Shown one piece after another: positions 2,995-28,827 of a stretch of DNA of 64,000 bases. Every line of letters starts with the position of its first letter. The stretch's first letter is position 1. The stretch is from contig NZ_CP012034.1 in NCBI RefSeq assembly GCF_001050475.1, forward strand, positions 496,001 through 560,000, given 5' to 3'. The position numbers and the translations under genes are program-made. The DNA is from Companilactobacillus ginsenosidimutans. Its GTDB lineage: Bacteria; Bacillota; Bacilli; Lactobacillales; Lactobacillaceae. The notes below the pieces were generated by a model. The model was not told where the DNA came from. It saw only the letters and a list, made by a program, of their open reading frames with translations, and did no database searches.

Positions 2995-3004
2995 TCGATA
3001 ATTT

Positions 3005-3033
3005 AGTCAACTCAATAATGGGTTGGCTTTTTT
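3005..3033 (+). terminator. Rho-independent terminator after the phosphoesterase gene
   Basis: AGTCAAC pairs with GTTGGCT (one G-U pair) around a loop, followed directly by a run of six T. It starts 10 nt after the stop codon of the phosphoesterase gene. Confidence 0.7.
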
Positions 3034-3148
3034 ACTGATTTAGCCTTACTTCGTATAATATATATTATGTAACCTTGAACAAGCAAAACGATTTTACGTC
3101 TCTCTTACCTCATCCTTTGTAGTTAAAAATCAACTTTATTGAAAATCA

Positions 3149-3592: not shown

Positions 3593-3767
3593 TTTGATAC
3601 TCCCTAAATATCCTGATGGTAGGCTTCATAATTTATATCTTAAACCTTACTTTAAGTATACTGTACTCGATTGATTTAGCATATCAATTTTGACAATATG
3701 GTAGCTTACCCTACCCTAATTAGTGTTAAATTGAGTAGAGATATTTATTTTTAGGAGGATGAAAATT

Positions 3768-4949
3768 GTGACCTTAGAAACTGATTTAATGTCAAAACTA
3801 AATGATTCTTCAGTTGAAATCATTAATTTACGTAGGTACTTGCATCAGCATCCAGAGACTTCATTTCACGAGAAAAGAACATCTGAATATATTAAAAACT
3901 ACTATCATGATTTGGGCATTGAAACTAAGAATTTTGGCTCTGGATATGGGTTCGTAGTGGATATTGACTCTGGAAATCCTGGTAAAACAATTGGTCTGCG
4001 TGCTGACTTTGACGCACTGTCTATTCAAGAGAAAAACGATTTGCCATTCAAATCGCAAAATGCTGTTGTCATGCATGCCTGCGGACATGATGGTCACACT
4101 GCATATATGATGGTTTTAGCAAAAACTTTGTATCAAATAAAACATAAGCTTCATGGAAAAATTAGAATTATTCACCAACCAGCTGAAGAAGTTTCTCCAG
4201 GTGGTGCTCAATCTATGATCGATGCCGGCGTATTAGATGGACTTGATCATGTAATCGGAGCTCATGTGATGTCTTCAATGCCCACGGGATCAATTGGTTA
4301 TCATCGTGCTGAAACACAGACTGGTCGCGCTAATTTCACCATCAAATTCATTGGCAAAGGTGGACACGCGTCAATGCCACATTTATCAAAAGATGCAATT
4401 GTCGCTGGAAGTTATTTTGTGACAGCATTACAAACTGTAGTATCTAGGAATATCGATCCTTTTGATACTGCCAGTGTCACTATTGGTTCGTTTGATGGTA
4501 CAGGTTCATTTAATGCAATCAAAGAAAGTGTTGAGCTCAAAGGCGATGTTCGAATTATGAAGGAGTCCACACGAAGAATAATCCGTCAGCGTATCGAAAA
4601 AATTGCTAATGGCATTTGTGACATGTTCGATGTTAAATATGAGATAGATTACGATGACAATTATCCAGTACTTTTTAATGATCCAGATTTAACAAATCAA
4701 GTAATTAAAAGCGTTGAGAATGCTAATATACCCGAAATTAATAAGATATTTGATTGTGGGCCACAAGATCCCTCTGAAGATTTCGCATATTTTGCACAAA
4801 ATCGGCCTAGTTGTTTCTTTTATATTGGTTGCCAAACTGCTGATGGAGCAAATCATCCACACCACAGTCCTGATTTTTTGATGAATGAGGATTGTTTGAT
4901 TATTGCTGCTAAAGCTATGGGAGCAGCAGTATTATCCTATTTGAATTGA
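3768..4949 (+). CDS. M20D family amidohydrolase/aminoacylase-like peptidase
   Basis: A metal-dependent amidohydrolase of the M20D group, which includes hippurate hydrolase, N-acyl-amino-acid and N-acetyldiaminopimelate deacetylases. It has RRYLHQHPE near the N-terminus, the metal motif HACGHDGHT, PAEEVSPGGA, the dimerisation segment GGHASMP, and HHSPDF at the C-terminus. The substrate cannot be decided from sequence. The ATG at 3759 touches the AGGAGG box (3753-3758), so it cannot be served by it. The GTG at 3768 has correct 9-nt spacing and is preferred, giving 393 residues. Monocistronic, closed by a hairpin at 4964. Confidence 0.88.
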   Translation: MTLETDLMSKLNDSSVEIINLRRYLHQHPETSFHEKRTSEYIKNYYHDLGIETKNFGSGYGFVVDIDSGNPGKTIGLRADFDALSIQEKNDLPFKSQNAVVMHACGHDGHTAYMMVLAKTLYQIKHKLHGKIRIIHQPAEEVSPGGAQSMIDAGVLDGLDHVIGAHVMSSMPTGSIGYHRAETQTGRANFTIKFIGKGGHASMPHLSKDAIVAGSYFVTALQTVVSRNIDPFDTASVTIGSFDGTGSFNAIKESVELKGDVRIMKESTRRIIRQRIEKIANGICDMFDVKYEIDYDDNYPVLFNDPDLTNQVIKSVENANIPEINKIFDCGPQDPSEDFAYFAQNRPSCFFYIGCQTADGANHPHHSPDFLMNEDCLIIAAKAMGAAVLSYLN

Positions 4950-4960
4950 TAAAACAAAAT

Positions 4961-4990
4961 GCCTATCCAAAAATTTGGATAAGTCGTTTT
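4961..4990. terminator. Bidirectional terminator between convergent genes
   Basis: An inverted repeat TATCCAAA/TTTGGATA (4964-4981), with a T-rich stretch on the right and an A-rich stretch on the left. It sits between the stop codons of the M20 hydrolase (4949) and the DUF2207 gene (4998) and can serve both. Confidence 0.65.
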
Positions 4991-4997
4991 TAATTAT

Positions 4998-6791
4998 TTA
5001 ATATGCGCCACCGCTGGATCCACCACCATTTCCGCCAAATCCACCATCACCTAGATTTCCTAATCCATCTATATTTCCAAATCCAGCATTGTCACCCGGA
5101 TACATAGCACCAGCTAAACTTCCTAAGAAGCCAACCTGAGTGCCAGCTCCAAGTGCATAATATAAGGCCAAATTGGAATCGTCGGAAATACTGTCACCAA
5201 AGTCAACTCGCAATTGTTGTAAGACATTTTGAGAAACTTCAAATGCAACCGCATATGGTAATATTTTTTCCCATAGAACTAAGTCACCGACTTTGGCTGT
5301 TCCAAGATCATCAATTTGTCCTAGCATCTTCTTAAAAGCAATTAACTTGGCCGCTGTTTGCTCACCAAGAGGAGTGTAAGAAGTGATTTTATGTTTACCA
5401 ATATAATAAATGATCCATGGAACAACGATTGCTAAAGCAGCAAAAGCTGTTGAGATCCAGATGAATTTTCCGAATAAGAATGGAGTCGCAATTAATACAA
5501 TTGCTGCAAAGATACTTGATAGGGACGCAACGTTAGCCAAACCACTTTTTGCATTAGTATTCTTAACATCAATATATCTTGCCCTACCCTGTGCAGCCCT
5601 ATTTTTCCATTTTTGGAATTCGTAGTAGAGATCTACACCTTGATAATCGGAGATTTGTTGGGTAGTTACTTTGTTATTTGCGCCAATTTTTGTCACCAAA
5701 AAAGTGAAAAAATCATCTTCCGGAATGTGCATTAATTCAATCTCATAAGTATTATCAATTTTAGATATCTTGATATTATTCTTATTAACCTGTACTAATA
5801 ATTCTCCGATGAAACTGGGTAAATCGGCAGTTTCATTTTGAGTTAGAATGATTTTTGCCATACTAGGAGATACTTCGGGAATATCAAACCAATCGTCCAA
5901 ATTGTTAATTTTATATTTGTCTTGATATTTATTGGTGTTAATACGTTTATGAATTATCACAAATAATAAAATTATAATTAGAGCAAAAATTCCAATGATG
6001 ACAAAATAGGAAACATCTAGAACTTTCTGCTTTCTTTCTATTTGTGTCTCACTTGCTAAAATTTTAGATTTCATATTTTTACGGGTAATATTTTGATTAT
6101 TTGGTGTGACTGAAGTTGGGAATATTAATCTACTGGATAAGGACTGGTGATTACTGTAGTTATTAATGTTAATGTCTACAACTCCAGACTTTGCGTTAAC
6201 TCTGTTTTTAAAACCTTGTTGCACTTTAACCCAAGAGTGTAAATTGGAAATATTACTTTCAGGTAACTGATATTTAATGTGAACATGTTTCATTGACGAA
6301 TCCCAATCACTACTAATGACCTTCCAATTAATTTCAGCAATATCGTTGTAATTAGTTACCAAATCAACAATGTTATATTTATAAACTGCAGTTACTTTAG
6401 CATCAGATGATTCATGCCGAATAGTCGCATTTATTTGGTCTGGTGACTCATCTGTAGTCACTCCGGACAATCCAAAAGTTTGATAACTATTATTTCCATT
6501 TCCATATTTGAGCGGAATCTCGTTCCCGTCCTCAAATAGCTGGACTCTAGGCAATGATGCATCAGCATGTCCATTCATCTGTTGTGAATATTGGATGACA
6601 TGAAATTTTCCAGTGAATTTGTATGTAACTTTTTGGACAATATCTGCTGAACCATCTTTTTTTACTTTAATGGAAGTGTCGTAATCAGTAATAGAATATT
6701 TGGAACCAGCATTAACCTGTTGCTGTGTAACTTGCGAAGTTAATATCAATGGAAATATTGTAAATATAATTACGGTAAATATTTTTTTCAT
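4998..6791 (-). CDS. DUF2207 domain membrane protein
   Basis: 597 residues with the layout of DUF2207 proteins: an N-terminal signal or anchor segment (about 5-22), an extracytoplasmic beta-rich domain (about 30-240), a membrane helix near 255-280, a cytoplasmic domain, a pair of membrane helices around 420-470, and a Gly-rich C-terminus ending GGNGGGSSGGAY. The family is widespread in Firmicutes and its function is not established. The ATG at 6791 is followed by a typical MKKIFTVIIFTIF leader and preceded by an AAAGGTG box. It is the leftmost gene of the surface-protein region and has no obvious operon partner. Confidence 0.85.
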   Translation of the reverse strand: MKKIFTVIIFTIFPLILTSQVTQQQVNAGSKYSITDYDTSIKVKKDGSADIVQKVTYKFTGKFHVIQYSQQMNGHADASLPRVQLFEDGNEIPLKYGNGNNSYQTFGLSGVTTDESPDQINATIRHESSDAKVTAVYKYNIVDLVTNYNDIAEINWKVISSDWDSSMKHVHIKYQLPESNISNLHSWVKVQQGFKNRVNAKSGVVDININNYSNHQSLSSRLIFPTSVTPNNQNITRKNMKSKILASETQIERKQKVLDVSYFVIIGIFALIIILLFVIIHKRINTNKYQDKYKINNLDDWFDIPEVSPSMAKIILTQNETADLPSFIGELLVQVNKNNIKISKIDNTYEIELMHIPEDDFFTFLVTKIGANNKVTTQQISDYQGVDLYYEFQKWKNRAAQGRARYIDVKNTNAKSGLANVASLSSIFAAIVLIATPFLFGKFIWISTAFAALAIVVPWIIYYIGKHKITSYTPLGEQTAAKLIAFKKMLGQIDDLGTAKVGDLVLWEKILPYAVAFEVSQNVLQQLRVDFGDSISDDSNLALYYALGAGTQVGFLGSLAGAMYPGDNAGFGNIDGLGNLGDGGFGGNGGGSSGGAY

Positions 6792-7156
6792 TTTTCACCT
6801 TTTTAACAATGAGAAAATCATTTGATTTTGTTGTTTATCGCTTGCATGATTTCTGGTATTCAAAACTCGTAAATATTATCAAAAATCATCACTTAAGAAT
6901 ATATACGAACAACATAATTTAGTTCAAGTCCCCATTCTCAGCTGCTAGAAATTTTAGACGAAAGAACTTTAACAAACATCAATTTGCAGAATAACTTTGT
7001 TCAGAATATGTCAGTTTTTTGATTGATTTCAGATTTACTTGCGGTTTTGAAGACAAATAGATGCATATATATTGACTCTAATTCAAGTGAGTTATGACCA
7101 TTTCAAAAACCAATGGACATTTATTAATACAACACTTGGCTTGTTGGAAATAAAAA
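6792..7156. other. Intergenic region without a recognisable gene
   Basis: About 365 AT-rich bases upstream of the DUF2207 gene, which probably hold its promoter. I see no ORF with a ribosome binding site, no RNA gene and no long repeat here. Confidence 0.5.
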
Positions 7157-7187
7157 AAACTCTCATGTCTAAACCAGAGAGTTTTAA
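7151..7187 (-). terminator. Rho-independent terminator of the secreted protein gene
   Basis: AAAACTCTC pairs with GAGAGTTTT around a 12-nt loop. Read on the minus strand it ends in eight T, and it lies 42 nt after the stop codon of the gene at 7229-7780. Confidence 0.8.
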
Positions 7188-7228
7188 TTTAGAATGAACA
7201 ACACAAATGAATATTAATTCGCCTATTT

Positions 7229-7780
7229 TTAATCAGTGACATAAATTGGATAAATGTAAGAACTGAATGATTTTGCAACGGCGCCTGGTGCAAGTGCCCA
7301 TCCGTTCCCACTCAAAGTTGCAGAATATGTTCCCTTACCACCCGCTTTGAATTGTTTGCTATATCCGATTCGACCGGTTGTGGAATTACGACTAAAACTA
7401 TCGAGTCTCGTACTATTAAGGTAAATATCACAACTCATTGCCATTGGTAAGGTTGTATATGGTACATCTAGGTCATATTCAAGCATATCATTTCCCACAG
7501 AGTATACTTGAAGATCAATAAGTGAATAACCGGCAATTATAGATGAAGCACCTTGTATATTTCCTCCTCCAGATTTATTTTCTAACCGCTGATCTATTCT
7601 AATTGTCCTGCTTACCAACAGCTTCTTCGATTGGGTTGAAGAAGATTGTGTTAGAGCAAAATTATTTTGCAAGTTTGAACTTGTCGAAGCTGATGATGAA
7701 TTTAAATCAATTCCAAATGAGATAATTCCTAGCACCAATGCGGTGGCTAAGCCCTCAAAAATTTTTTTCAAATTATGCAT
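7229..7780 (-). CDS. Hypothetical secreted protein
   Basis: 183 residues with an N-terminal signal peptide (MHNLKKIFEGLATALVLGI, then a Ser-rich cleavage region). The mature part is rich in Ser, Gly and Tyr and looks beta-stranded; no family is recognised. The frame is open to 7852, but a GGGGGA box at 7788-7793 lies 7 nt before the ATG at 7780, so this start is chosen; the same kind of G-rich box precedes the CAP/SLAP gene at 13161. It lies downstream of the interrupted SLAP-like gene in the same direction, and may belong to the same surface-protein set. Confidence 0.6.
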   Translation of the reverse strand: MHNLKKIFEGLATALVLGIISFGIDLNSSSASTSSNLQNNFALTQSSSTQSKKLLVSRTIRIDQRLENKSGGGNIQGASSIIAGYSLIDLQVYSVGNDMLEYDLDVPYTTLPMAMSCDIYLNSTRLDSFSRNSTTGRIGYSKQFKAGGKGTYSATLSGNGWALAPGAVAKSFSSYIYPIYVTD

Positions 7781-8228: not shown

Positions 8229-8978
8229 TTATTTCTTGATTAAATCGTTGTTTCTAAGACGATATGATTTACCTGTAATCTTGATGATTTGTGCATGATG
8301 CACTAATCTATCAAGAATTGCCGAAGCAGTTACTGTATCTTGGAGAATATCCCCCCAACTAGACAAGCTGGCATTGCTAGTAATAATTGTAGAATGTCGT
8401 TCATATCTATTGTTGATGAGCTGAAAGAGTAAATTGGCTTCTTGCTTTTCAATTGGTAAGTAACCAAGTTCATCAATTATTAAAAGCTCATAATTTGAAT
8501 ATCTTCTTATTTGTCTATCCAAGGTTCCCTTGTCATAGGCTTTTTTTAGTTTCAACAAGAGGTCATTACAATTGATGAATAAAGTTCTTATATCCTGTCT
8601 ACATGCAGATACCCCAATGGCAGTTGCTAGATGAGTTTTCCCAACACCCGGAGAACCGAGAAATATCAAATTATCATGTCGCTCCATGAAGCCCATATTT
8701 TGAAACTCTCTAATTTGAACTTCATTGATGCTTGTTTGAAATCCAAAATCAAATTCTTCAATGGACTTTTTGACGGGAAAACGTGCTTTCTTGATAATCG
8801 AATCGATATGCTTTCTTTCATTGGCATGTATCTCTTCGTCAGTTAGCTTCAATAGTGATTCTGTTAGTGGTACAGTTTTATGGCCAGTTTCATCGAGGTA
8901 CTCTGGCAGGTAGTTACACATATTGTTCAAACCAAGTTCTTGTAGATTATTCATTAATTCATGGTAGTTATCGCGCAT
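8229..8978 (-). CDS. istB: IS21-family ATP-binding transposition helper IstB
   Basis: An AAA+ ATPase that helps the IstA transposase choose its target and assemble the integration complex. 249 residues: an N-terminal helical part, Walker A GSPGVGKTHLA (about 105-115) and Walker B LLIIDELGYL. The frame is open to 9008, but a GGAGG box lies 8 nt before the ATG at 8978 (MRDNYHELM). This start lies 11 nt inside the end of istA, the usual coupled arrangement in IS21. Confidence 0.93.
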   Translation of the reverse strand: MRDNYHELMNNLQELGLNNMCNYLPEYLDETGHKTVPLTESLLKLTDEEIHANERKHIDSIIKKARFPVKKSIEEFDFGFQTSINEVQIREFQNMGFMERHDNLIFLGSPGVGKTHLATAIGVSACRQDIRTLFINCNDLLLKLKKAYDKGTLDRQIRRYSNYELLIIDELGYLPIEKQEANLLFQLINNRYERHSTIITSNASLSSWGDILQDTVTASAILDRLVHHAQIIKITGKSYRLRNNDLIKK

Positions 8979-10209
8979 TGTTGTTACCTCCAAATTCAAT
9001 TGCATCATATTGAACCAAGTTATTCTCGATGTAGTTTCTTATCTCATCTTCAGATTTGTTTTTCTTAAGGTCAGATTGAAGAATCTCAATTGTATCTTCT
9101 TGTGTATAGTTGAATTTGTTTGAGGTTATCAAGTGCGATTTTATTAATGCTCCGTTATAATATATTTGTAATTGATCCCCATTATCGGATAAGCGAACTT
9201 CGACTGTCTTACCGATATATTGGGTGCTAACGGAATACTTACATTTACGAAATTGGACCATTGATTCAGAAGATACGATACGGGTAATATCGTCTTCGAA
9301 GTATGGATTAAGTAGGTCTGATGGTAGTTTATGTAAGTATTCTTTTTCTTTGTCATTCCATAGATCTATCGGTTTAATATCTGTCGCTTGTGAGATGTCA
9401 TTGTTCAAACTATTCATAGTTTCATCAACTAACTTGATAACGTCATCATCAGTTTCAAACTCATAATTAAAAGCACGTAATCTCTCAGTTGTTCTAGCTA
9501 GTGCCTCGACACATCCTTTAGTTTGAGGTCTGAATGGTCGACAAGCAATTGGCTTGAAGCCTGCGTCTTTGGTAAAAGCAAGAAATCTAGAATTGAAGAT
9601 GGTTTTATGATACTGACTCTTAGAATGGTCCACAACAATCTTCATATTGTCGAACCATATTTCTTTTGGAATGCCTCCAGTGTATTTAAAAGCTTCATTA
9701 AGACATTCGAACAAAGTATCCTGATTACGTTCAAAAGTGAGCGTCATGAATTTCATCTTTGAGAAGGGAAGAACATATAGAAAGATATTAAACTTGTGTG
9801 GCTTTCCAAATTTATCATAGAGAACCATATTTTCTTTCCAATCAACCTGAGCGGATAATGCAGGGGAATGTGTCACACGAATCGTGGCTTTCTTTGATCT
9901 CTTCCTTTTGAAGTCATGACAATAATCCTTAACCAAAGTGTATTTACCGGGATAACCTTGAGTTTGTATAAATTTGAAGATTGCCATCGCACTACATCCA
10001 AGTTCTAATTTGTCATCAATTATTGCAGTGTATGGATCTAACTTACTTTTTCGCTTCTTTACCATTTTGTTTGGTGGATTAGAAGCCTCGAGGTAAGCTT
10101 TTTTTATTGTTCGATAATCGGCATTGTAAGTACGGCCTAAAGCAGTGAAGTTAGGTTTAATATTTTCATTCACGTAGAACTCCATCCTTTCGCGAATATC
10201 ATTTCTCAT
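8968..10209 (-). CDS. istA: IS21-family transposase IstA
   Basis: A 413-residue DDE transposase/integrase of the IS21 family. An N-terminal helix-turn-helix region is followed by a catalytic core with D in VDWKENM, D in WFDNMK and E in KGCVEALAR, in that order. The ATG at 10209 lies 8 nt after a GGAGG box and is preferred to the TTG one codon upstream. No frameshift or stop interrupts it, so it is probably functional. IstB overlaps its 3' end. Confidence 0.94.
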   Translation of the reverse strand: MRNDIRERMEFYVNENIKPNFTALGRTYNADYRTIKKAYLEASNPPNKMVKKRKSKLDPYTAIIDDKLELGCSAMAIFKFIQTQGYPGKYTLVKDYCHDFKRKRSKKATIRVTHSPALSAQVDWKENMVLYDKFGKPHKFNIFLYVLPFSKMKFMTLTFERNQDTLFECLNEAFKYTGGIPKEIWFDNMKIVVDHSKSQYHKTIFNSRFLAFTKDAGFKPIACRPFRPQTKGCVEALARTTERLRAFNYEFETDDDVIKLVDETMNSLNNDISQATDIKPIDLWNDKEKEYLHKLPSDLLNPYFEDDITRIVSSESMVQFRKCKYSVSTQYIGKTVEVRLSDNGDQLQIYYNGALIKSHLITSNKFNYTQEDTIEILQSDLKKNKSEDEIRNYIENNLVQYDAIEFGGNNNAR

Positions 10210-10245
10210 CAAATTGACCTCCAGGATCTTGATAAGAAAATGATA

Positions 10246-14281: not shown

Positions 14282-15958
14282 ATGTCATTTGATGGAATGT
14301 TTACCCATGCAATGGTAAACGAACTAAATAGAACTCTGAAGGGTGGTCGGATTTCAAAAATACAACAACCTTTCGCAAATGAACTCATCTTGACAATTCG
14401 CAGTGAACGCAAAAACCGCCAATTGTTATTATCAGCTCACCCCAGTTATGCGAGAATTCAAATAACTGACCAACCGTTCGAAAACCCGGCTAAGCCTGCT
14501 ACATTTGTTATGTCACTTCGTAAGTACATAACAAGTGCTATCGTACAAGATTTTCGACAATTAAATAATGATCGTGTCGTGAATATCGATTTGTCAGCAA
14601 AAAACGAACTTGGTGATATTCATTCATATACGATGACTATTGAAATAATGAGTCGTCATAGCAATATTTTCCTAATTAATAATGATACTGGGAAAATTGT
14701 TGATTTAGTAAAACGTGTCTACCCTGAAGATAATTCTTTCCGTGGATTACTTCCTGGTGATACATATCAGCTACCACCTGCACAAAATAAGATGAATCCT
14801 TTTGAAGCAACAACTGACGATTTTAAAGATTTGAAAACCGCGTCTGATATTCGTGAGAAGTTTGAAGGTATTGGAATTGACACTTCCGCGGAATTGGCGT
14901 CAATCATTATAGGTGGTGCCGATCCAGTTGAATTCATTTCTAATTATAATGATGTCGTCTCACCTAACACTGCCAAGCAGGAAAAGAACAACAAATTAGG
15001 CTTTTTCCCTGTCGAGTTTAAGAATACGACCAATGTTATTGGCTATTACCCTACTCTAGGTGAATTGTTAGATAATTACTATCTTGATCGAGCAAGAATT
15101 GATCGGATTGAGCAACAAACTAAGAGTATTACTCATCGTTTATCCATTGTTTTGAAGAAGGATAAATCCAAAATTAAAAAGTTGAACAAACAACTTAAAC
15201 AAACAAAGATAATGGATGAATATAATTTGTATGGCGAGCTTTTGACAACTTATATGTCAAAAATAGAGCGTGGCTCAAAATCAATTAAATTGACCAATTA
15301 TTACAATGACGAAGAAGTTACGATTCCACTTAATCCTGAATTTTCTCCTTCAGATAATGCACAGAGTTATTACAAACGTTACCGGAAACTCCAAAATTCA
15401 ATACCACATATTAACGAACAGCTAGAAATCACTACTTCTGAAGTCAATTATCTTGAATCAGTTTTGGCCTCACTGGAATATGTTGATATCGAAGATGTTG
15501 ATGGAATTATTGAAGAACTTGAAGAATCTGGTTATATCAAGAAGAAGAAAAAGGGACCTCGCCGTAAGAAGAAAAAGACCGTTGGTGAACACTTTGTAAC
15601 CTCAACGGGAATTCCAGTAATTGTTGGAAAAAATAATATCGAAAATGATAAATTGACTATGAAATTAGCTCAAAAAAATCATTATTGGTTCCACGTTAAG
15701 GATATCCCTGGTTCTCATGTAATTTTGGAATCGAGCGATCCAGATGAACAGTCTATTGTCGAAGCAGCAACCATCGCATCTTACTATTCTAAAGCTCGTG
15801 AATCTGCTAAAGTACCTGTAGATTATTTACAGGTTAGAAATATTCGCAAACCCAATGGAGCTAAACCTGGTTTTGTAATTTTCGAAGGTCAAACAACTAT
15901 CCTGGTTGATCCAGATAGGAACCTAGTTGAAAAACTTCGAGATGTAAAGAAAAAATAA
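14282..15958 (+). CDS. rqcH: Rqc2/NEMF homologue RqcH (NFACT, 'fibronectin-binding' family)
   Basis: 558 residues. RqcH recruits tRNA-Ala to stalled 50S subunits and adds C-terminal alanine tails to nascent chains in ribosome quality control. The NFACT-N domain has the D97-R98 pair (LNNDRVV) at the same numbers as the residues needed in B. subtilis RqcH. A coiled-coil/HhH middle region follows, then a basic stretch (KKKKKGPRRKKKK, about 420-435) and an NFACT-R domain (about 445-550, with HYWFHVKDIPGSHVIL). A GAGG box precedes the ATG. Older annotations call this family fibronectin-binding protein FbpA. Confidence 0.93.
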   Translation: MSFDGMFTHAMVNELNRTLKGGRISKIQQPFANELILTIRSERKNRQLLLSAHPSYARIQITDQPFENPAKPATFVMSLRKYITSAIVQDFRQLNNDRVVNIDLSAKNELGDIHSYTMTIEIMSRHSNIFLINNDTGKIVDLVKRVYPEDNSFRGLLPGDTYQLPPAQNKMNPFEATTDDFKDLKTASDIREKFEGIGIDTSAELASIIIGGADPVEFISNYNDVVSPNTAKQEKNNKLGFFPVEFKNTTNVIGYYPTLGELLDNYYLDRARIDRIEQQTKSITHRLSIVLKKDKSKIKKLNKQLKQTKIMDEYNLYGELLTTYMSKIERGSKSIKLTNYYNDEEVTIPLNPEFSPSDNAQSYYKRYRKLQNSIPHINEQLEITTSEVNYLESVLASLEYVDIEDVDGIIEELEESGYIKKKKKGPRRKKKKTVGEHFVTSTGIPVIVGKNNIENDKLTMKLAQKNHYWFHVKDIPGSHVILESSDPDEQSIVEAATIASYYSKARESAKVPVDYLQVRNIRKPNGAKPGFVIFEGQTTILVDPDRNLVEKLRDVKKK

Positions 15959-15963
15959 GTAAA

Positions 15964-15999
15964 AAATAGGAGTTAGGCCATTTGGTCTAACCCCTATTT
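15964..15999. terminator. Bidirectional terminator between rqcH and the carB homologue
   Basis: AAATAGGAGTTAGGCC pairs with GGTCTAACCCCTATTT (two wobble positions) around a short loop. It lies 5 nt after rqcH and overlaps the last codons of the convergent carB homologue. Confidence 0.85.
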
Positions 16000-18393
16000 A
16001 AATTTATCTGAAATAATCTTCTGAATTCCCTTAGCATCGTAACTGTTGAATTTTTGATCATTCGTCGTAACCAAGAAATCCTCATCATCGTTTTTAAAAA
16101 TTTGGTCAACAGTCATATCAGCTTGGAAATTATTGCCTAAAATCAATTTCACCAGTGTGTCTATTACATGAACGGAGCTTGCAAGTTCATGCCTAATAAT
16201 ATCTTGATTCATACCTGATGTAATCTTTGTAACCATCCAATGATCATGTGAATAGGCAAATTCAAAATTGTAAGTATTGATCTGATGGGAATCTTCTAAC
16301 TCATTTTTGACGATATTAGTGATTTCTGACTTATCAGTATCGGTCAAAAAGTTATTGAATGCGCTAATCTCATAGCTTCTTTCGCCAACCATTTTGCGGA
16401 AGATTACAGACGGAATGCTGAAAGATGTTCCATCAGATACAACGATAATTCTCATTGTGGTATCAGCTTTCAGATCAACCGATTTGATAGGTTGGGTACT
16501 GATTTGGAAAACTCTATTGTTCTCGGTATCTTCATCACTAAGTGTTTGAGAAAAATCAATGATTTTAAAAATTGTTTTTTCTTGAATTAAATTGAGATGT
16601 TGTAATTCCATATGCGGATCAGCAATTTCTACAGCAACATTTCTAATTTCAAGTGGAGAATTCCATGGTTCACGTCCAAGAATTACAGCTTCTAATCCAT
16701 TTTGATTTATGGATTTAACTAGTTGCATTAGGACAAACTGACGAACCATAATATTCTTTTTAGATGTGATTATTGGTGAGCGCACAATAATTTTGTTGCG
16801 ATCGGTAAACTCCAAATCATTACTAATTCCACTAGTTAGAAAGTAATTTTGTTGTTGAAGTTTATCCATATTAACGGATACGGATTTCTTACTTTTAACA
16901 ACAGTTCTGGTAACGACATCATCACGGTCGAGCAAAACCTTGCTGTACCCTATTCCTTTGACACCCATACCCACTACATTTTCGATATTATTTTCATCGA
17001 TCTCATCATCGCGAATGATTGCACTATTTTCTTTAATATTTTTGAGTGCAACTAGATAAGGAATATTGATACCGGTAACCTCAGATAAGACAGAAAGTTC
17101 GAAGTCACGTCTGATAGCTTCAATCAAAACATCCAGCATCCAATTTGTTGGATGAATAATTTTTTCAAATAGTTGATCGTCATCCATCTGGTGAAGTTTT
17201 TCATATCGATTTAAAGTGTCGTTTAATTTGTCATTTAAAGCACCTTTATTGAATACTTCTTCAATACTGAATCCACTTACGATAATGCTTGAGTCCGAAG
17301 TCTTGCTTGGCCCAATATAACGTTGATCAGTAGTATTCCATTGAGGAAAACGTGATGTTATATGATCCATAAAAGGCTCACTAGCGCCATTGAAACTACT
17401 ACCTGAATCGAGCTGTAATTTATCTAGTTGATATCCAAGATTAAGTTCAACTGATACGGTGGCTAATGGATAACTCGTAGCATATTCAAGAAATTTGGTT
17501 TCTTCACTTAAACGTGGAATGAATTCAGTAATGTAACATTCGTTGGTTTTATGATTATAGGCGAAATGCACCGTACAAGCTCCAACAACATCAAATACAC
17601 GAGCTAGTTTCATTGCAAAATTACGCAACTTTTGAAGTTTTGAATCATTTAATGAAATTGCTGGTGAGACAAGATTTGAATCCAAGTGATGAATACCAAT
17701 GGGTTCAACGTCTTCAATTGTTCCAATTAGAGCTGAGTTATCGAATCGATCTCTCACAACAGTAAATGAGTATTCACTAAAACCACGAATACTACGTTCA
17801 ATCTCTATTTTGGCACTTTGTGAATCCTCTAGTGCCATAAAATTATCGAGTTCAAACAAGTTATTAATATTTGTCCAACCGCTTGAATGACGATTGGAGA
17901 ATCGGCGACGTGCGATAATTGGAAAACCAATTGACCGAATGAAATCGTACAATTCTTTTTCATCATCTGAAGAGATGAAGTTAATAACTGGCAAATCATT
18001 TTCGTTAAGTTTGCTGATAAACATTTCTCGTTTAAAAGTAGCTAGAGATGCAAAGTAATCAGTACCTAACACATTGGTTGATGAAATCTTACCGTTAAGT
18101 CCGGATATAATTCCGAGAGCATTCTTGTCCCCAACCGTCGGCAAAATTGCATCAGGATGAAAATTGTCAACGTAGTCAAGAATATTTTCACCATTAACCT
18201 TTTCTACAACGACTTTATCAAAGAATTCACTGGATGATAACAATGCTGTTGGATTTTCTACCATGATGGTAGTTTTGTAACCCAACTGATGTAGAATTTC
18301 GGCTGTATCATACAACGCAGTAGACAGGTCAACATTTTTGTCACTGTTAGTTGGGCCAATTATTAAAATGTTATGAATTCCACTAGTAACCAA
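15994..18393 (-). CDS. carB: Shortened, degenerate carbamoyl-phosphate synthase large-subunit homologue
   Basis: 799 residues against about 1060 for CarB. Residues 1-450 align with the first synthetase half and oligomerisation domain; GIHHLDS (233-239) and FAYNHKTNE are readable. But the glycine loop RPSFTMGGSGGG of normal CarB is RRRFSNRHSSGW here (162-173). The metal ligands Gln285 and Asn301 (E. coli numbers) appear as H276 and I292; only E290 remains. The second half (about 530-755) is much shortened and equally eroded: where CarB has IEVNPRASRT there is VTKITSGMNQ (721-730). The C-terminal MGS-like allosteric domain is missing. The frame is open throughout. It follows the carA homologue by one base. 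It is unlikely to make carbamoyl phosphate; true role unknown. Confidence 0.8.
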   Translation of the reverse strand: MVTSGIHNILIIGPTNSDKNVDLSTALYDTAEILHQLGYKTTIMVENPTALLSSSEFFDKVVVEKVNGENILDYVDNFHPDAILPTVGDKNALGIISGLNGKISSTNVLGTDYFASLATFKREMFISKLNENDLPVINFISSDDEKELYDFIRSIGFPIIARRRFSNRHSSGWTNINNLFELDNFMALEDSQSAKIEIERSIRGFSEYSFTVVRDRFDNSALIGTIEDVEPIGIHHLDSNLVSPAISLNDSKLQKLRNFAMKLARVFDVVGACTVHFAYNHKTNECYITEFIPRLSEETKFLEYATSYPLATVSVELNLGYQLDKLQLDSGSSFNGASEPFMDHITSRFPQWNTTDQRYIGPSKTSDSSIIVSGFSIEEVFNKGALNDKLNDTLNRYEKLHQMDDDQLFEKIIHPTNWMLDVLIEAIRRDFELSVLSEVTGINIPYLVALKNIKENSAIIRDDEIDENNIENVVGMGVKGIGYSKVLLDRDDVVTRTVVKSKKSVSVNMDKLQQQNYFLTSGISNDLEFTDRNKIIVRSPIITSKKNIMVRQFVLMQLVKSINQNGLEAVILGREPWNSPLEIRNVAVEIADPHMELQHLNLIQEKTIFKIIDFSQTLSDEDTENNRVFQISTQPIKSVDLKADTTMRIIVVSDGTSFSIPSVIFRKMVGERSYEISAFNNFLTDTDKSEITNIVKNELEDSHQINTYNFEFAYSHDHWMVTKITSGMNQDIIRHELASSVHVIDTLVKLILGNNFQADMTVDQIFKNDDEDFLVTTNDQKFNSYDAKGIQKIISDKFK

Positions 18394-18394
18394 A

Positions 18395-19471
18395 CTATCT
18401 ACTCCAATCTTGATTCTTAATTGAATCGATTAAATCGATAAATTCATCAAACACGTAATATCCATCTGTTGGACCAGGAGCTGCTTCAGGTTCAAAGAGC
18501 ACACTAATAATTGGTAAGTATTCATGTCTAATTCCCTCGATACTACCATCGGAAACACAAATATTTGTCACAATGAAATCAGATGATCCAATTGATTTTT
18601 GGTCGATTGTGTATGAATGATTATGATTAACAAAATCAATTTTTCCACTGGCGACTTCTTTCACTGCCAATGATGATTCGTGGTGCGGGTGCTCTAATCT
18701 GGTGATTTGGCAATCGTTTGCTAAAGCCACGAGTAAACTACCTAATCCGATTCCCATTGTCGGAAATTGCTTTTGTATCACTTTAATGTTCTCAATGGTT
18801 TTTGGTAAATCTTTAGGATCTCCAGGTCCATTCGAAAAGATGACCCCGTCAGGATGGAGACTAGCAATCTCCTCTGGAGTTGAGTTGTAATTAACAATGA
18901 CTGAATTGCAATCACGATATGACAATTGTCTCAATATCGAATACTTTAGTCCTAAATCAACAATAACCATTTTTAAGCCAATATTTGGATTTGGATATGA
19001 TTGTTTAGTTGAAACTTGTTTGACTAAATCACTAGGTAAAACCAATGCTTTGATTTGATCCATGGCATGTTCATCATGAGTATCCATGATACTTGCCTTC
19101 ATTTCACCATGCTCGTAAATATGTTTTGAAAGAGCGCGAATATCAACATTTTTAATTCCAGGAATTTTCATGCTAGTAATCCACTCTTCAAATGGAATTG
19201 ATCCATCGACACTGTCAGAACTACTGGAGCCAATTACGATTCCCTTACATTGATAATTAATAGATTCATAAAAATCGCGGTTAATTCCCGAACTGCCGAT
19301 TCCCGGAGTTGTAAAAGCCAAGATTTGTCCCTCAGCATCAGGGTCAGTGACTGACTGTTCGATACCAGTTCTATTATTAGAAACAACAAGTTGACCAGTA
19401 GTAATCACTGAAGAACCAAATCCCTCACCTGGAAAAACTGTTCCGTCTTCTAATATTAAATAACGTTTCAT
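18395..19471 (-). CDS. carA: Carbamoyl-phosphate synthase small-subunit homologue lacking glutaminase residues
   Basis: 358 residues, full length for CarA. The N-terminal CPSase_sm domain (LEDGTVFPGEGFG at the start) and the class I amidotransferase fold (FSNGPGDP at 212-219) are present. The nucleophile elbow, normally GICLGHQ, is GIGLGSL (240-246): the catalytic Cys is G242 and the next His is S245. The active-site His in the HPE motif is E327 (FEPEAAPGP), while the Glu of the triad is kept. Glutamine hydrolysis should therefore be lost. It lies between pyrR (21 nt upstream) and the carB homologue. Read as a retained pseudo-glutaminase. Confidence 0.85.
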   Translation of the reverse strand: MKRYLILEDGTVFPGEGFGSSVITTGQLVVSNNRTGIEQSVTDPDAEGQILAFTTPGIGSSGINRDFYESINYQCKGIVIGSSSSDSVDGSIPFEEWITSMKIPGIKNVDIRALSKHIYEHGEMKASIMDTHDEHAMDQIKALVLPSDLVKQVSTKQSYPNPNIGLKMVIVDLGLKYSILRQLSYRDCNSVIVNYNSTPEEIASLHPDGVIFSNGPGDPKDLPKTIENIKVIQKQFPTMGIGLGSLLVALANDCQITRLEHPHHESSLAVKEVASGKIDFVNHNHSYTIDQKSIGSSDFIVTNICVSDGSIEGIRHEYLPIISVLFEPEAAPGPTDGYYVFDEFIDLIDSIKNQDWSR

Positions 19472-19492: not shown

Positions 19493-20035
<543 letters not shown>

Positions 20036-20067
20036 CTAAAGAAAAGCCAGGACGATCGCCCTAGCTT
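20036..20067 (-). terminator. Terminator or attenuator hairpin directly upstream of pyrR
   Basis: On the minus strand AAGCTAGGGCGA pairs with TCGTCCTGGCTT (two G-U pairs), followed by TTTTCTTT. It lies 74 nt after the rluD stop codon and only about 10 nt before the pyrR ribosome binding site. It could end rluD transcripts or act as an attenuator of pyrR-carA-carB. Confidence 0.75.
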
Positions 20068-20140
20068 CGATTTAATTAGTAATTTAATACAAAAATGTCT
20101 TTCAATTCATTATTCAGAATAAAATATTGCTTTAGTCGTG

Positions 20141-21055
20141 TCAACCACGCAATTTGTTTACGGTATCATTAAATATCTTTGGAGGCTCAACTGAAAATTC
20201 CATCCACTCATGAGTTCGTGGATGTTCAAACCCCAATGTCTTTGCATGTAGAAATTGACCATTACCGAGTAGTGTATTTTTTGGTCCGTAAAGAGGATCT
20301 CCAGCAACTGGATGACCAATATATTGCATGTGAACCCTGATTTGATGAGTTCTACCAGTTTCAAGTCGAAGTTTGACTAGTGAGTAACCTTCAAATTGTT
20401 CAATCACTTCAAAGTGAGTAACAGCATGGCGACCATCGTCAACAATTGCTTGTTTTTTGCGATCACTTTTAGACCTACCTAAAGGTGCATTGATAACACC
20501 CTTCTTCTCTTTAAAGTTACCATGAACAATCGCAACATATTCGCGCAAATTAGTTTTGTTTTTCAATTGTTCCATTAGTGATTGTTTAGCTAAATTATTT
20601 TTTGCAATCATTAATAAACCTGAGGTATCTTTATCAATTCGGTGTACGATTCCTGGTCTAATCATGTCATCATCATTAATTTTGCTATGATACAAGATTG
20701 CATTTACCAAGGTACCATCTGGATGACCAGCTGCTGGGTGAACAACCATCCCTTGTGGCTTATTAACAACCAGAACATCTTCATCTTCGTAAATAACATC
20801 CAGAGGGATATTTTGAGGAATTGCCTCGATAGGTTTTTCTTCAGGAATAGTAAATTCCACAACATCCCCTTGAGATAACTTGTATCCGGCTTTTTTTATG
20901 ATTTGATCGTTCACACTGATTTCGCCATCTTTAATAAATTTTGTAATCTGTGAGCGGCTAACCTCGTCGACTGATTCATCAACGAACTTATCTAGTCGTG
21001 CTTTTGTAGTTTCTTCAAATTTAAGAGTAATTAAATTATTTGCTATTTTTTTCAC
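20141..21055 (-). CDS. rluD: RluD-type 23S rRNA pseudouridine synthase
   Basis: 304 residues of the RluA/RluD family that convert uridines of 23S rRNA to pseudouridine. An S4 RNA-binding domain (about 15-75) is followed by the catalytic domain with HRIDKDTSGLL (the Asp is the catalytic residue, about 140) and the LETGRTHQIRVH motif. It begins 20 nt inside the end of lspA, so the two are translationally coupled. In B. subtilis the homologue (ylyB) also lies between lspA and pyrR. The exact uridine targets cannot be told. Confidence 0.93.
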   Translation of the reverse strand: MKKIANNLITLKFEETTKARLDKFVDESVDEVSRSQITKFIKDGEISVNDQIIKKAGYKLSQGDVVEFTIPEEKPIEAIPQNIPLDVIYEDEDVLVVNKPQGMVVHPAAGHPDGTLVNAILYHSKINDDDMIRPGIVHRIDKDTSGLLMIAKNNLAKQSLMEQLKNKTNLREYVAIVHGNFKEKKGVINAPLGRSKSDRKKQAIVDDGRHAVTHFEVIEQFEGYSLVKLRLETGRTHQIRVHMQYIGHPVAGDPLYGPKNTLLGNGQFLHAKTLGFEHPRTHEWMEFSVEPPKIFNDTVNKLRG

Positions 21056-21500
21056 CTGCTGTCGATCGGAATAAATAAATAATTAGTAAGATGACACCAA
21101 CAGTTATATAAGTGTCTGCTAAATTAAATATTGGAAAATTAATGAAATCTAAATTAAACATATCAATCACAAATTGACGAGTAAACCTGTCAATCGCATT
21201 ACCCAATGTACCGGCAAATAAGAACAATAATGAGAATCTGTATAAATAATCTGTCTTATCAGCTTTTACAAATAAATATATTAAAACAATTACGGCTATT
21301 GCGGTAATTATGTAGAAGAAATACATCTTACCTTCCAACATACTCCATGCTGCGCCGGTATTTCTGACATTAGTTAACGAGATTAATCCAGGAATCAACT
21401 GCTGGTCACCAAGTGAAGGTACATTGTTAAACACATAAAACTTCAAGGCTTGGTCACCAAAGATCAAACCAATTAAAACTAATAAATAAACAAAAGGCAT
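21036..21500 (-). CDS. lspA: Lipoprotein signal peptidase LspA
   Basis: A 154-residue aspartic signal peptidase II that cleaves prolipoprotein signal peptides in the membrane. Four hydrophobic segments are seen. The motifs RNTGAAWS (46-53), GNAIDR (100-105, catalytic D104) and FNLADT (125-130, catalytic D129) are all present. The ATG overlaps the fhs stop codon as TAATG, and the 3' end overlaps rluD by 20 nt. Confidence 0.96.
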   Translation of the reverse strand: MPFVYLLVLIGLIFGDQALKFYVFNNVPSLGDQQLIPGLISLTNVRNTGAAWSMLEGKMYFFYIITAIAVIVLIYLFVKADKTDYLYRFSLLFLFAGTLGNAIDRFTRQFVIDMFNLDFINFPIFNLADTYITVGVILLIIYLFRSTAGEKNSK

Positions 21501-24047: not shown

Positions 24048-24079
24048 GCTTACAAATTTAAGCTAGGAGGATTTTGCTG

Positions 24080-25093
24080 ATGTATTACGTTCTAATGAAA
24101 GATCGAGATATTCGTGACAATCTTGCAACTGAACAATATCTCATGAACAACGTTGAATTTGATGAACCATTAGTTCTTTTTTACATTGAAAAACCATGTA
24201 TCATTGTAGGAAGAAACCAAAACACACTTGAAGAAATTAACAGTGACTACGTAAAAGACAACAATATTACTGTTACTCGTCGTATTTCTGGTGGTGGTGC
24301 AGTTTATCAAGATCTTGGTAACTTATGTTTTAGTTTCGTTGTCAATTCTGACGACAAGAATTTTGGTGATTTCAAATCATTTACTCAACCTATTATTGAT
24401 GCGCTTCATGATATGGGTGCAACTACTGCCGAAGTTTCAGGTAGAAATGATTTATTAGTTGATGGTAAGAAATTCTCTGGTAATGCCATGTATTCAAGAA
24501 ACGGAAAAACTTTCTCACATGGAACATTATCACTTGACGTTGATTTAAACGTCCTTACAGACGCATTAAAAGTTGCTAAAGACAAGATTGCGTCCAAAGG
24601 TATTAAATCAATCAGAAGTCGTGTTACTAACTTAAAACCTTATCTTGATGAAAAATATCAAAACTTGAGTACTGAAGAATTTAGAGATCGTTTACTTCTT
24701 GAATTATTCCATGCTAACTCAGTCGACGAAATCAAAGATAAAGAATATATTGTTTCCCCAGAACAACAAAAAGAAATCGATAAGATTAAAGAAGATTATT
24801 ACTACAACTGGGATTGGGTTTACGGTAAATCACCTGAATTCACTGCCAAACAACGTAAACATTTTGATATGGGAACTGTTGATGTTAGATATAATGTTGC
24901 TGATGGTAAAATTGACCATGTTGAAATTTACGGAGATTACTTTGGTATGAAGGATTCTACAGATATCAAAAATAAATTAACTGGAACAGTGTTTGACCGT
25001 GATGACATTTTAAAAGTATTAGATTCATTTAATTTGGATTACTATTTCCATGGAATTCCACAAGACGAACTTTCAAAACTATTTACACCCTAA
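24080..25093 (+). CDS. lplA: Lipoate-protein ligase A, first of two tandem copies
   Basis: 337 residues. LplA activates lipoate with ATP and attaches it to lipoyl domains of 2-oxo acid dehydrogenases or GcvH. The ligase core has RRISGGGAVYQDLGN (about 70-84) and the adenylate-binding Lys in DGKKFSGNAM (about 130-140). A C-terminal accessory domain follows (about 245-337). The ATG at 24080 lies 9 nt after AGGAGG; the TTG two codons upstream is rejected. The next gene is a close paralogue. No lipoyl-domain gene is in the window. Confidence 0.95.
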   Translation: MYYVLMKDRDIRDNLATEQYLMNNVEFDEPLVLFYIEKPCIIVGRNQNTLEEINSDYVKDNNITVTRRISGGGAVYQDLGNLCFSFVVNSDDKNFGDFKSFTQPIIDALHDMGATTAEVSGRNDLLVDGKKFSGNAMYSRNGKTFSHGTLSLDVDLNVLTDALKVAKDKIASKGIKSIRSRVTNLKPYLDEKYQNLSTEEFRDRLLLELFHANSVDEIKDKEYIVSPEQQKEIDKIKEDYYYNWDWVYGKSPEFTAKQRKHFDMGTVDVRYNVADGKIDHVEIYGDYFGMKDSTDIKNKLTGTVFDRDDILKVLDSFNLDYYFHGIPQDELSKLFTP

Positions 25094-25115
25094 TATATAA
25101 TTACGAATAATTTTG

Positions 25116-25147
25116 GCTTGAGTTTTTTCAAACTCAGGCTTTTTTTC
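25116..25147 (+). terminator. Terminator hairpin between the lplA copies
   Basis: GCTTGAGTTT pairs with AAACTCAGGC (one G-U pair), followed by seven T. It ends about 3 nt before the AGGAGG box of the second lplA, so no promoter fits between them. Confidence 0.9.
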
Positions 25148-25161
25148 TTGAGGAGGACAAA

Positions 25162-26175
25162 ATGTATTTTTACAGAATGAGATCAACAGATATTCGAGAT
25201 AACCTAGCAACTGAACAATATTTGATGAATAACGTCGAGTTCGATGTGCCACTAGTTTTATTTTATATCCAAAAACCCTGCATAATTGTCGGCCGTCACC
25301 AAAATACGCTTGAGGAAATCAACTCCGATTATGTTAAGAAACACAATATTACTATTACAAGAAGATTTTCTGGTGGTGGCGCAGTATATGATGATCTAGG
25401 AAATATCAGTTTTAGTTTCGTTGTAAACTCTGATAGTGACAATTTTGGTAATTTTAAAAAACTTACGAAACCAATTATTGATGCATTAAAAGATATGGGT
25501 GCAACTACCGCTGAAGTGTCGGGTAGAAATGACTTAATGGTTGATGGTAAGAAATTCTCTGGTAATGCTATGTATACCAAAAATGGGAAAATGTTTTCTC
25601 ACGGTACCCTAGCCTACGATGTAGATCTTACTGTCCTCAGCAAAGCATTAAATGTTCCAAAAGATAAGATCGAATCCAAAGGAATAAAATCAGTTAAGTC
25701 TAGAGTTACAAATGTTAAGCCATATTTGAAACCAGAATATCAGAAGCTAACGACTGAAGAATTCCGTGACCGATTAATAATGGAGTTATTCCATACTGAC
25801 AATCTAAATTCTATTGCAAATAAGGAATATAAATTAACAGAGGCAGACAAAACTGCAATCCAAAAATTAAATGATGACTACTATTACAACTGGGACTGGG
25901 TCTATGGAAAGTCTCCTGACTTCACAGTTAAAAATCGCAAACATTTCAACATGGGAACAATTGATGTCAGATATGAAGTGTCTGAAGGTAAAATAAAGTC
26001 CCTCGAAATCTATGGTGATTATTTTGGAAAAAAAGATTCTAACGACATTAAGCAAAAATTAATCGGAATAGATTACGATTCAGAACAAATCACAAAAGTT
26101 CTAAAAACATTTGATTTAGATAATTACTTCAGTGGAGTATCAGAGAATGAACTCTTCACCCTTTTCACAAAATAA
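25162..26175 (+). CDS. lplA: Lipoate-protein ligase A, second tandem copy
   Basis: 337 residues, the same length and domain layout as the preceding copy and clearly similar along the whole protein (for example RRFSGGGAVYDDLGN, DGKKFSGNAMYT, YYYNWDWVYGKSP). All recognisable core motifs are kept. Differences are spread along the protein, which points to an old tandem duplication with both copies under selection, perhaps for different lipoyl-domain acceptors. AGGAGG lies 5 nt before the ATG. A terminator hairpin ends just upstream, so expression depends on read-through of it. Confidence 0.94.
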   Translation: MYFYRMRSTDIRDNLATEQYLMNNVEFDVPLVLFYIQKPCIIVGRHQNTLEEINSDYVKKHNITITRRFSGGGAVYDDLGNISFSFVVNSDSDNFGNFKKLTKPIIDALKDMGATTAEVSGRNDLMVDGKKFSGNAMYTKNGKMFSHGTLAYDVDLTVLSKALNVPKDKIESKGIKSVKSRVTNVKPYLKPEYQKLTTEEFRDRLIMELFHTDNLNSIANKEYKLTEADKTAIQKLNDDYYYNWDWVYGKSPDFTVKNRKHFNMGTIDVRYEVSEGKIKSLEIYGDYFGKKDSNDIKQKLIGIDYDSEQITKVLKTFDLDNYFSGVSENELFTLFTK

Positions 26176-28450: not shown

Positions 28451-28827
28451 CTTACCAAGTAAATTTCTATAAGCCACGTTCTGTTCATGTATCGGCTCGG
28501 TCTTCCGATACAATTAGTAATCATCTATCTACAATTAAGCCTTCACAGTAGATTCATTTCTCGTTATGAAGCGCCCCTACCAAAGTTTGGGTTGCCAGCT
28601 CGTGGGGTTTACCTCGTTCCACTATCAAGATTTCCCTTGATACTACGTCTCTGTGGCACTTTCAAGCTATTAACACATAGTAAAACCTTAGTGCTTTCAC
28701 TGCCGTTACCAAAAGGTACCTTAGCTTATTGGGCTAAGCGCGAACACTACAAGCATCTCAGCTCGTGCTGGCGTGGACTTTCCTCAGCCTAGATAACTAG
28801 GCCGCGATTACTCAAAATTTACCAATG
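28451..28827 (-). ncRNA. rnpB: RNase P RNA, type B
   Basis: The catalytic RNA of RNase P, which matures tRNA 5' ends. On the minus strand it carries the signature GAGGAAAGTCC (near 28775), followed by GAGATGCTTGTAGTGTTCGC, then GAAAGTGCCACAG, GTGGAACGAGGTAAACCCC and the 3' region ACAGAACGTGGCTTAT. The order and spacing match Bacillus type B RNase P RNA. The ends are approximate: the 5' end is set from the promoter and the 3' end from the terminator. Position between gpsB and ypsC is conserved with B. subtilis. Confidence 0.97.

Follow-up and report, generated by a model that had tools for sequence, protein, structure and literature searches.

A catalytically dead carbamoyl-phosphate synthase gene pair beside pyrR, retained across Lactobacillaceae

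Why would a bacterium keep an open reading frame (ORF) for an enzyme subunit whose catalytic residues have been eroded? The question is raised by a 799-codon gene in a 64,000-nucleotide stretch of Companilactobacillus ginsenosidimutans (RefSeq assembly GCF_001050475.1, contig NZ_CP012034.1, positions 496,001 to 560,000), here called the window. A preliminary description had read this gene as a homologue of CarB, the large subunit of carbamoyl-phosphate synthase (CPS), and had proposed that it encodes not a CPS but a stable derived protein of a pseudoenzyme family in lactobacilli. Judged by sequence, the proposal holds, and the family is wider than was proposed. The gene, carB*, is the last of a minus-strand run, pyrR-carA*-carB*, in which the asterisk marks a catalytically dead paralogue. 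The strand, the dead CarA partner, the pyrR gene heading the run, and the occurrence of such pairs in 34 of 41 genomes, including longer and less eroded forms, had been missed. That carA* and carB* are a catalytically dead CPS pair (pseudo-CPS) is well supported by their sequences, and the CarA*-CarB* protein is presumably inactive.

Erosion of CarB* was examined by alignment to Escherichia coli CarB, the catalytic residues and domain limits of which served as the reference. The open frame of 799 codons was confirmed but lies on the minus strand, frame 1 of the plus strand containing many stops. In the first ATP-grasp half, the glycine loop reads RFSNRHSSGW against SFTMGGSGGG in E. coli, and the metal ligands Gln285 and Asn301 correspond to His276 and Ile292, both as described previously. 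The alignment columns adjacent to these ligands hold A278 and P293, Gly176 is changed, and Glu299 and Arg303, which had gone unmentioned, are retained. The motif VTKITSG in the second half was also found as described (Glu841 to Lys, Asn843 to Thr, and Arg845 to Gly), the E. coli counterpart being IEVNPRAAR and not IEVNPRASR. This half is shortened, by about 116 residues rather than the stated 150 (266 of 382 E. coli positions aligned), and none of the 138 E. coli positions of the MGS allosteric domain, the uridine and inosine monophosphate (UMP/IMP) binding site of E. coli CPS, was aligned, in agreement with the reported lack of an MGS-like domain. Pfam models for the pre-ATP-grasp and ATP-grasp domains matched window CarB*, the oligomerisation-domain model had no match, and scores were below the curated cut-offs (TIGR01369, 218 versus 1027 bits; NF003671, 216 versus 599 bits). 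An intact carAB, for which the preliminary description had proposed to look, was found elsewhere in the window genome, with a 1066-residue CarB (the sole PF02787 match) beside a CarA of the Cys/His type.

At the positions of the E. coli CarA glutamine amidotransferase (GATase) triad, Cys269-His353-Glu355, window CarA* has Gly, Glu, and Glu, and the triad is not preserved. The window and the 25 loci tabulated first all have Gly in place of Cys269, and at the position of His353 they have Glu, Asp, Ser, Phe, or Gln. Window CarA* exceeds the curated CarA cut-offs (NF009475, 350 versus 221 bits; TIGR01368, barely, 307.9 versus 307.35 bits), and these family models are therefore blind to the dead GATase site. 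A CarA* motif, HAFDQLxAxVLP, with several positions present in 43 of 43 pseudo-CarA rows, was considered as a gained interface and was rejected as ancestral; it also occurs where CarA is of the Cys type, both in some Lactobacillaceae and in other families of Lactobacillales.

AlphaFold models of both proteins matched CPS subunits best. The CarA* model (predicted local distance difference test score [pLDDT], 88.5) had a template modelling (TM) score of 0.93 to 1c30_B. The CarB* model (pLDDT, 85.6) was closest to E. coli CPS 1jdb_B (TM score, 0.75; root mean square deviation, 7.3), with block pLDDT values of 82 to 93 in its reduced second half (residues 600 to 799). The structure prediction of CarB* alone, which the preliminary description had suggested as a check, thus predicts that the CPS fold is kept. 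Compared with E. coli CPS (1a9x, 1bxr, 1c30, and 1jdb), the window pair has homologous subunits, the same gene order, and similar folds but is without the GATase Cys and His, the phosphate loop, part of the metal ligands, and the MGS domain, and its second ATP-grasp half is reduced.

An assembly error, named earlier as an alternative, was refuted by the same-genus genomes. In a sample of 397 Lactobacillaceae genomes, all 26 from Companilactobacillus contained carB* at 60 to 100% identity, in open frames with no internal stops, and the gene order was the same on eight named Companilactobacillus contigs. For the phylogenetic profile that had been suggested, CarA was searched in 81 genomes, and full-length CarA was fetched for the first 41 (G000 to G040, representing 40 Lactobacillaceae genera). 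Gly269 CarA with a degenerate CarB was present in 34 of these 41 genomes. The CarA of G033, with a Cys-Leu-Asn triad and a dead partner CarB, was counted apart from the 34, and neither type was found in six genomes (G011, G012, G025, G029, G030, and G031). In G029, an otherwise canonical CarB is divided between two ORFs of 853 and 207 residues (L087, position 5070 onward), perhaps because of a frameshift or an error in the sequence.

Most members have a shortened large subunit, with pseudo-CarB lengths of either 643 to 901 residues or, in the full-length forms, 1054 to 1067 residues (loci L047, L051, L053, L058, L073, L086, L097, and L099). Every tabulated pseudo-CarB was degenerate in one or both halves, the tabulation leaving aside the CarB partners of most Lactiplantibacillus loci, G439, and G467. 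Twelve checked ATP-grasp residues were kept in all 32 CarB sequences beside Cys/His CarA, and at least one was lost in each of the 51 others (the window and the partners of non-Cys/His CarA). The least eroded was the CarB of L058 (G021), the first half of which has all checked residues, and full-length forms such as L053 and L058 retain the MGS region. Full-length CarB sequences with destroyed sites pass NF003671 (L053, 984 bits; L058, 923 bits; L199, 1254 bits). In G124:C1 (L218), CarA* lies in a stop-to-stop frame of 1408 codons, as though fused with CarB*, and the start-to-stop ORFs are separate.

A full-length Cys CarA was found in 24 of the 34 pseudo-CPS genomes and was not found in 10 (G009, G013, G015, G017, G020, G024, G027, G028, G034, and G035), two of which are 87% (G017) and 91% (G028) complete; G020 has only a fragment of Cys CarA. 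Aspartate transcarbamylase (ATCase) was below the cut-off or gave no match in 8 of the 10, all but G028 and G035. In G043, from the same genus as the window, the single CarA match was the dead one.

All defined ratios of nonsynonymous to synonymous substitution rates (dN/dS) indicate strong constraint on the pair at the sequence level. Among four Lactiplantibacillus species, dN/dS was 0.004 to 0.017 for CarA* and 0.020 to 0.039 for PyrR2, rough values given that synonymous sites were near saturation. Because this saturation left dN/dS mostly undefined in Companilactobacillus, the proportion of nonsynonymous differences (pN) was compared there with that of neighbouring genes. Between the window and four Companilactobacillus genomes, pN was 0.05 to 0.07 for CarA* and 0.10 to 0.11 for RluD; CarA* evolved at about the rate of PyrR and more slowly than RluD, and CarB* at about the rate of RluD or slightly faster. 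Within the first half of the 51 pseudo-CarB sequences, R222, D223, S247, and P252 were kept in all 51, D246 in 50, E235 in 49, E215 in 47, and H243 in 45. Residues of the ATP/bicarbonate site were kept in fewer (Gly176 in 8, Glu299 in 11, Arg129 and Asn301 in 12 each, and Arg303 in 15), and the position of Arg169 was Arg in 27 and Lys in 21. The near-invariant residues, including R222, D223, and the surroundings of the E. coli His243 motif, may point to a pocket that has been retained or simply reflect the needs of the fold.

Gene order suggested where the pair came from. Of the 34 genomes, 33 have a rluD homologue upstream of the pair and on its strand. In 20, no more than 150 bases separate carB* from a rqcH homologue downstream, a count affected by stretches that end before the rqcH position. 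Two genomes without the dead pair (G025 and G031) have pyrB-carA-carB with all checked residues and, further along in the part that was read, rqcH, and G405 (L199), from another Lactobacillales family, has lspA-rluD-pyrR-pyrB-x-carA-carB together. The Bacillus subtilis pyr arrangement agrees with an ancestral pyr operon at this locus. Judged from these gene orders, the pseudo-CPS locus is the site of the ancestral pyr operon.

The loss of the GATase cysteine is not confined to one lineage. The CarA tree, in which deep support is weak, requires three Gly/Cys changes: in the main Lactobacillaceae set, in L038 (G022), and in L195 (G405). L047, in which Cys is kept and His and Glu are lost, falls among the Gly rows, in the open part of the tree. 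In the other families of the order, 24 loci and 19 loci were classified (G405 in both), and all were of the Cys/His type except G405, G439, and G467. These three, with Gly269 CarA, belong to genus g49, outside Lactobacillaceae, which implies more than one origin of the dead GATase. At L199 (G405; positions 2835 to 7000), the Gly269 CarA lies inside a pyr operon, and a full-length CarB lacks key residues of both halves; the G405 dead CPS is independent of the Lactobacillaceae one. At L038 (G022; positions 3072 to 7450), a Gly269 CarA clusters with Cys-type CarA, including that of the same genome, beside a CarB of 643 residues, apparently a further independent loss.

The regulator PyrR accompanies the pair in most genomes. 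In 29 of the 34, pyrR lies upstream of the pair and on its strand; the gap is at most 70 bases in 24 of these, and a single ORF intervenes in the other 5 (G010, G014, G021, G022, and G040). The intervening ORF, of 421 to 457 residues, was assigned to Xan_ur_permease by Pfam in G022 and looked similar on inspection in the remaining four, for a gene order of pyrR-permease-carA*-carB*. Window PyrR, the only PyrR found in its genome, scored 281 bits (NF003548; cut-off, 218 bits) and has the phosphoribosyl pyrophosphate (PRPP) loop and the RNA-binding motif. The PyrR query matched 40 of 42 genomes. Beside the dead CPS at L100 (G009; positions 6532 to 7008), PyrR has lost the PRPP-loop motif and keeps the RGHRELPI...GKNVPTS motif. 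In genus g29, PyrR was not found in any of seven genomes with the same query, in a search without its own positive control, and all eight CarA genes of five near-complete genomes were of the Cys/His type.

Matches to the PyrR RNA element (RF00515) were found in 37 of 42 genomes and above the cut-off in 25. The window genome has two, one above the cut-off, preceding pyrB-pyrC-pyrF-pyrE-pyrD and a Xan_ur_permease gene. Elements precede the pseudo-CPS locus in some other genomes, such as G010 and G014. In genomes with only the pseudo-CPS, the elements that were read stood ahead of genes for Xan_ur_permease (L107, L110, L111, and L120), Transp_cyt_pur (L108), OMPdecase and phosphoribosyltransferase (L112), UPRTase (L114), nucleoside deoxyribosyltransferase (L109), and an MFS transporter (L113). 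G009, G017, and G020 had no RF00515 match.

Lactiplantibacillus carries a second PyrR at this locus. Genus g38 corresponds to Lactiplantibacillus, three of its CarB* proteins being identical to proteins of L. plajomi, L. herbarum, and L. mudanjiangensis. Two PyrRs were found in all 21 Lactiplantibacillus genomes searched; in all 21, the rluD-linked PyrR was followed by Gly269 CarA and CarB, and the other PyrR adjoined pyrB in each of the 11 loci of its kind that were retrieved. Among the rluD-linked loci, the CarB residues of one (L056) were tabulated, and 12 more CarB sequences were 852 to 855 residues long. A loss of the pair from L. plantarum was first considered and then dropped, since the pair is present in several Lactiplantibacillus genomes, G258 and G323 among them; the 380-member cluster P0127 is 99.9% identical to the G258 protein. 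L. plantarum PyrR1 and PyrR2 reportedly respond to pyrimidine and inorganic carbon, PyrR2 mediating the inorganic-carbon response (PMC3582564). From the pattern in the genus, PyrR2 of L. plantarum is probably the rluD-linked PyrR with carA*carB* downstream. The window resembles this system in that its PyrR heads the run, and the second Lactiplantibacillus PyrR is at the same locus with carA*carB*.

What, then, might the pair do? The reading we favour over the others, and to which we give about an even chance, is a non-catalytic CPS complex that works with PyrR. On this reading, the pair descends from a CPS encoded at an ancestral pyr locus (lspA-rluD-pyrR-...-carA-carB-...-rqcH), both of its subunits have lost their catalytic residues, and the complex has been retained under purifying selection. 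Either a ligand from the old CPS pathway (bicarbonate, glutamine, or a nucleotide) would bind to it or it would serve as a scaffold, and it would thereby adjust the RNA binding or levels of PyrR, the pyrimidine attenuation regulator, and hence pyrimidine uptake and synthesis. The sequences themselves establish the residue losses, the pairing, the gene order, the retention, and the constraint; inactivity, complex formation, the ligand, and any effect on PyrR go beyond them. In favour of the reading are the position of pyrR upstream of most pairs, the constraint, the predicted folds, the persistence of the pair in genomes where no live CPS was found, and the lack of both PyrR and dead CarA in genus g29. 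Several observations weigh against such a role. The MGS domain is absent from the shortened pseudo-CarB, and the glutamine-pocket residues Ser47, Gln273, and Asn311 are altered in most CarA*, so the obvious ligands may not bind. Five of the 34 genomes have no nearby PyrR (G002, G005, G017, G027, and G037), and G017 (87% complete) contains the pseudo-CPS with no PyrR match genome-wide. The CarA match contains one counted stop in G027 and likewise in G028. The joint absence of PyrR and pseudo-CPS from genus g29 is a single evolutionary event, and adjacency to PyrR, inherited from the ancestral pyr operon, need not by itself mean joint function.

A more specific proposal, which we consider unlikely, is that the Lactobacillaceae CPS has turned into a sensor of inorganic carbon (or glutamine). 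The first ATP-grasp half, which handles bicarbonate in live CPS, would now bind bicarbonate and signal to the adjacent PyrR, and the pair would be the missing sensor of the PyrR2-dependent CO2 response of L. plantarum. The Lactiplantibacillus arrangement, with the second PyrR next to the pair in 21 of 21 genomes and the pyrB-side PyrR separate, agrees with this, as does the near-invariance of residues around the E. coli His243 motif in the 51 pseudo-CarB sequences; the other ATP/bicarbonate-site residues are mostly lost, however, and the conserved ones may be structural. It is improbable that the dead paralogue instead joins and modulates a live CPS as a hetero-oligomer with intact CarA or CarB. 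The fold and the oligomerisation region are retained, and live partners are present in the window genome (intact CPS) and in the 24 genomes with full-length Cys CarA, but persistence of the pair in 10 of 34 genomes without such a CarA, mostly (8 of 10) without ATCase, makes a modulator of working CPS unlikely, and the one CarA match of G043 is the dead one.

Altered chemistry, as a ligase or ATPase and perhaps ammonia dependent like mammalian CPS I, seems very improbable to us. E. coli CarA Cys269 mutants keep ammonia-dependent activity, and in mammalian CPS I the catalytic cysteine of the GATase is replaced while the ATP-grasp halves are live. The window pair matches the fold of that enzyme (CPS1; 5dot and 5dou), but its CarB* ATP-grasp halves are dead. 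The first half of L058, complete at the checked residues, is the form closest to what altered chemistry would call for; in every tabulated partner CarB of a Gly269 CarA, ATP-grasp residues are nonetheless missing from at least one half, and none of the tabulated loci combines Gly269 CarA with a CarB that is fully intact, as would be expected of a CPS I-like enzyme. The eroded residues also differ among genera and so give no hint of a shared new active site. That an assembly artefact or the decay of the old pyr operon accounts for the pair is scarcely credible: although the locus is the ancestral pyr operon site (compare L199) and most large subunits are shortened, the frames are open in 26 of 26 genomes, dN/dS is far below 1 where defined, the pair is retained in 34 of 41 genomes, and the predicted folds are confident. 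The data speak against decay for Companilactobacillus and Lactiplantibacillus.

Coordinates of the locus are given in Table 1. The genes carA* and carB* are 1 base apart. In all six Companilactobacillus leaders that were folded, a hairpin was predicted at the same place ahead of pyrR, with differing stem sequences; the terminator scan did not report this hairpin in the window, and no RF00515 element was found in the window's own pyrR leader. The hairpin and T-rich run suggest that the pyrR-carA*-carB* run may itself be controlled by attenuation. The promoter scan found fewer sites than in shuffled sequence, so the TTGACA-17-TATTCT match is weak evidence for a promoter. Beyond rluD and lspA, fhs (formate-tetrahydrofolate ligase) is also upstream on the same strand.

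Table 1. Features of the pyrR-carA*-carB* locus and its neighbours (window positions)
Feature	Position	Strand	Description
rqcH/fbpA (NFACT protein)	14282..15958	plus	convergent downstream neighbour, conserved locus
carB*	15994..18393	minus	799-residue degenerate CarB paralogue; TTG start at 18393
carB* domain order			pre-ATP-grasp, dead ATP-grasp 1, oligomerisation-like region, second pre-ATP-grasp, reduced ATP-grasp 2
Destroyed phosphate-binding glycine loop, ATP-grasp 1 of carB*	17875..17904	minus	codons 164-173, RFSNRHSSGW
carA*	18395..19471	minus	358-residue dead CarA paralogue
carA* Glu327 codon	18491..18493	minus	position of E. coli CarA catalytic His353
carA* Gly242 codon	18746..18748	minus	position of E. 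coli CarA catalytic Cys269
pyrR	19493..20020	minus	175-residue PyrR; PRPP motif DDVLYTGRT and RNA-binding motif
Leader hairpin and T-rich run	20043..20068	minus	directly ahead of pyrR Shine-Dalgarno; predicted by folding
Promoter-like TTGACA-17-TATTCT	20116..20144	minus	ahead of pyrR; 10/12 consensus match
rluD-type pseudouridine synthase	20141..21055	minus	upstream neighbour, conserved locus
lspA (signal peptidase II)	21036..21500	minus	next gene upstream of rluD, conserved locus

Elsewhere in the window, an adjacent pair of lipoate-protein ligase genes, both with LplA-B_cat and Lip_prot_lig_C, was found at 24074 to 26175, a transposase-like ORF (rve and Mu-transpos_C_2; IS21-type by eye) at 8968 to 10212, and a class B RNase P RNA at 28465 to 28819 on the minus strand.

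Dead paralogues acting as regulators are a known kind of protein, examples being the AdoMetDC prozyme and trypanosomatid deoxyhypusine synthase (PMC5201418 and PMC3663545). The likeness is a dead copy retained by selection, and the difference is that those copies activate a live paralogue, whereas the pseudo-CPS persists also where no live CPS was found. A dead, PyrR-linked CPS in lactobacilli was not found in open-licence PMC titles and abstracts, a scope that does not take in two key L. plantarum PyrR2/CPS papers, in which the paralogues may appear. Within that scope, the CPS-derived, PyrR-linked family is apparently new, which fits the earlier suggestion that it was previously undescribed.

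Dead enzymes under selection usually mark a regulatory function, and here both subunits of a textbook enzyme lack their catalytic residues, in a much-studied and much-used family, beside a pyrimidine regulator. Such pairs are readily mislabelled as carbamoyl-phosphate synthase, CarA* and three dead full-length CarB proteins passing NCBI cut-offs, and metabolic models and prototrophy predictions made from such labels would be wrong for genomes that have only the dead pair. We know of no sensor identified for the CO2 response of pyrimidine supply that is genetically known in lactobacilli. If the pair does work with PyrR, the coupling of CO2 to pyrimidine supply in lactobacilli would become testable.

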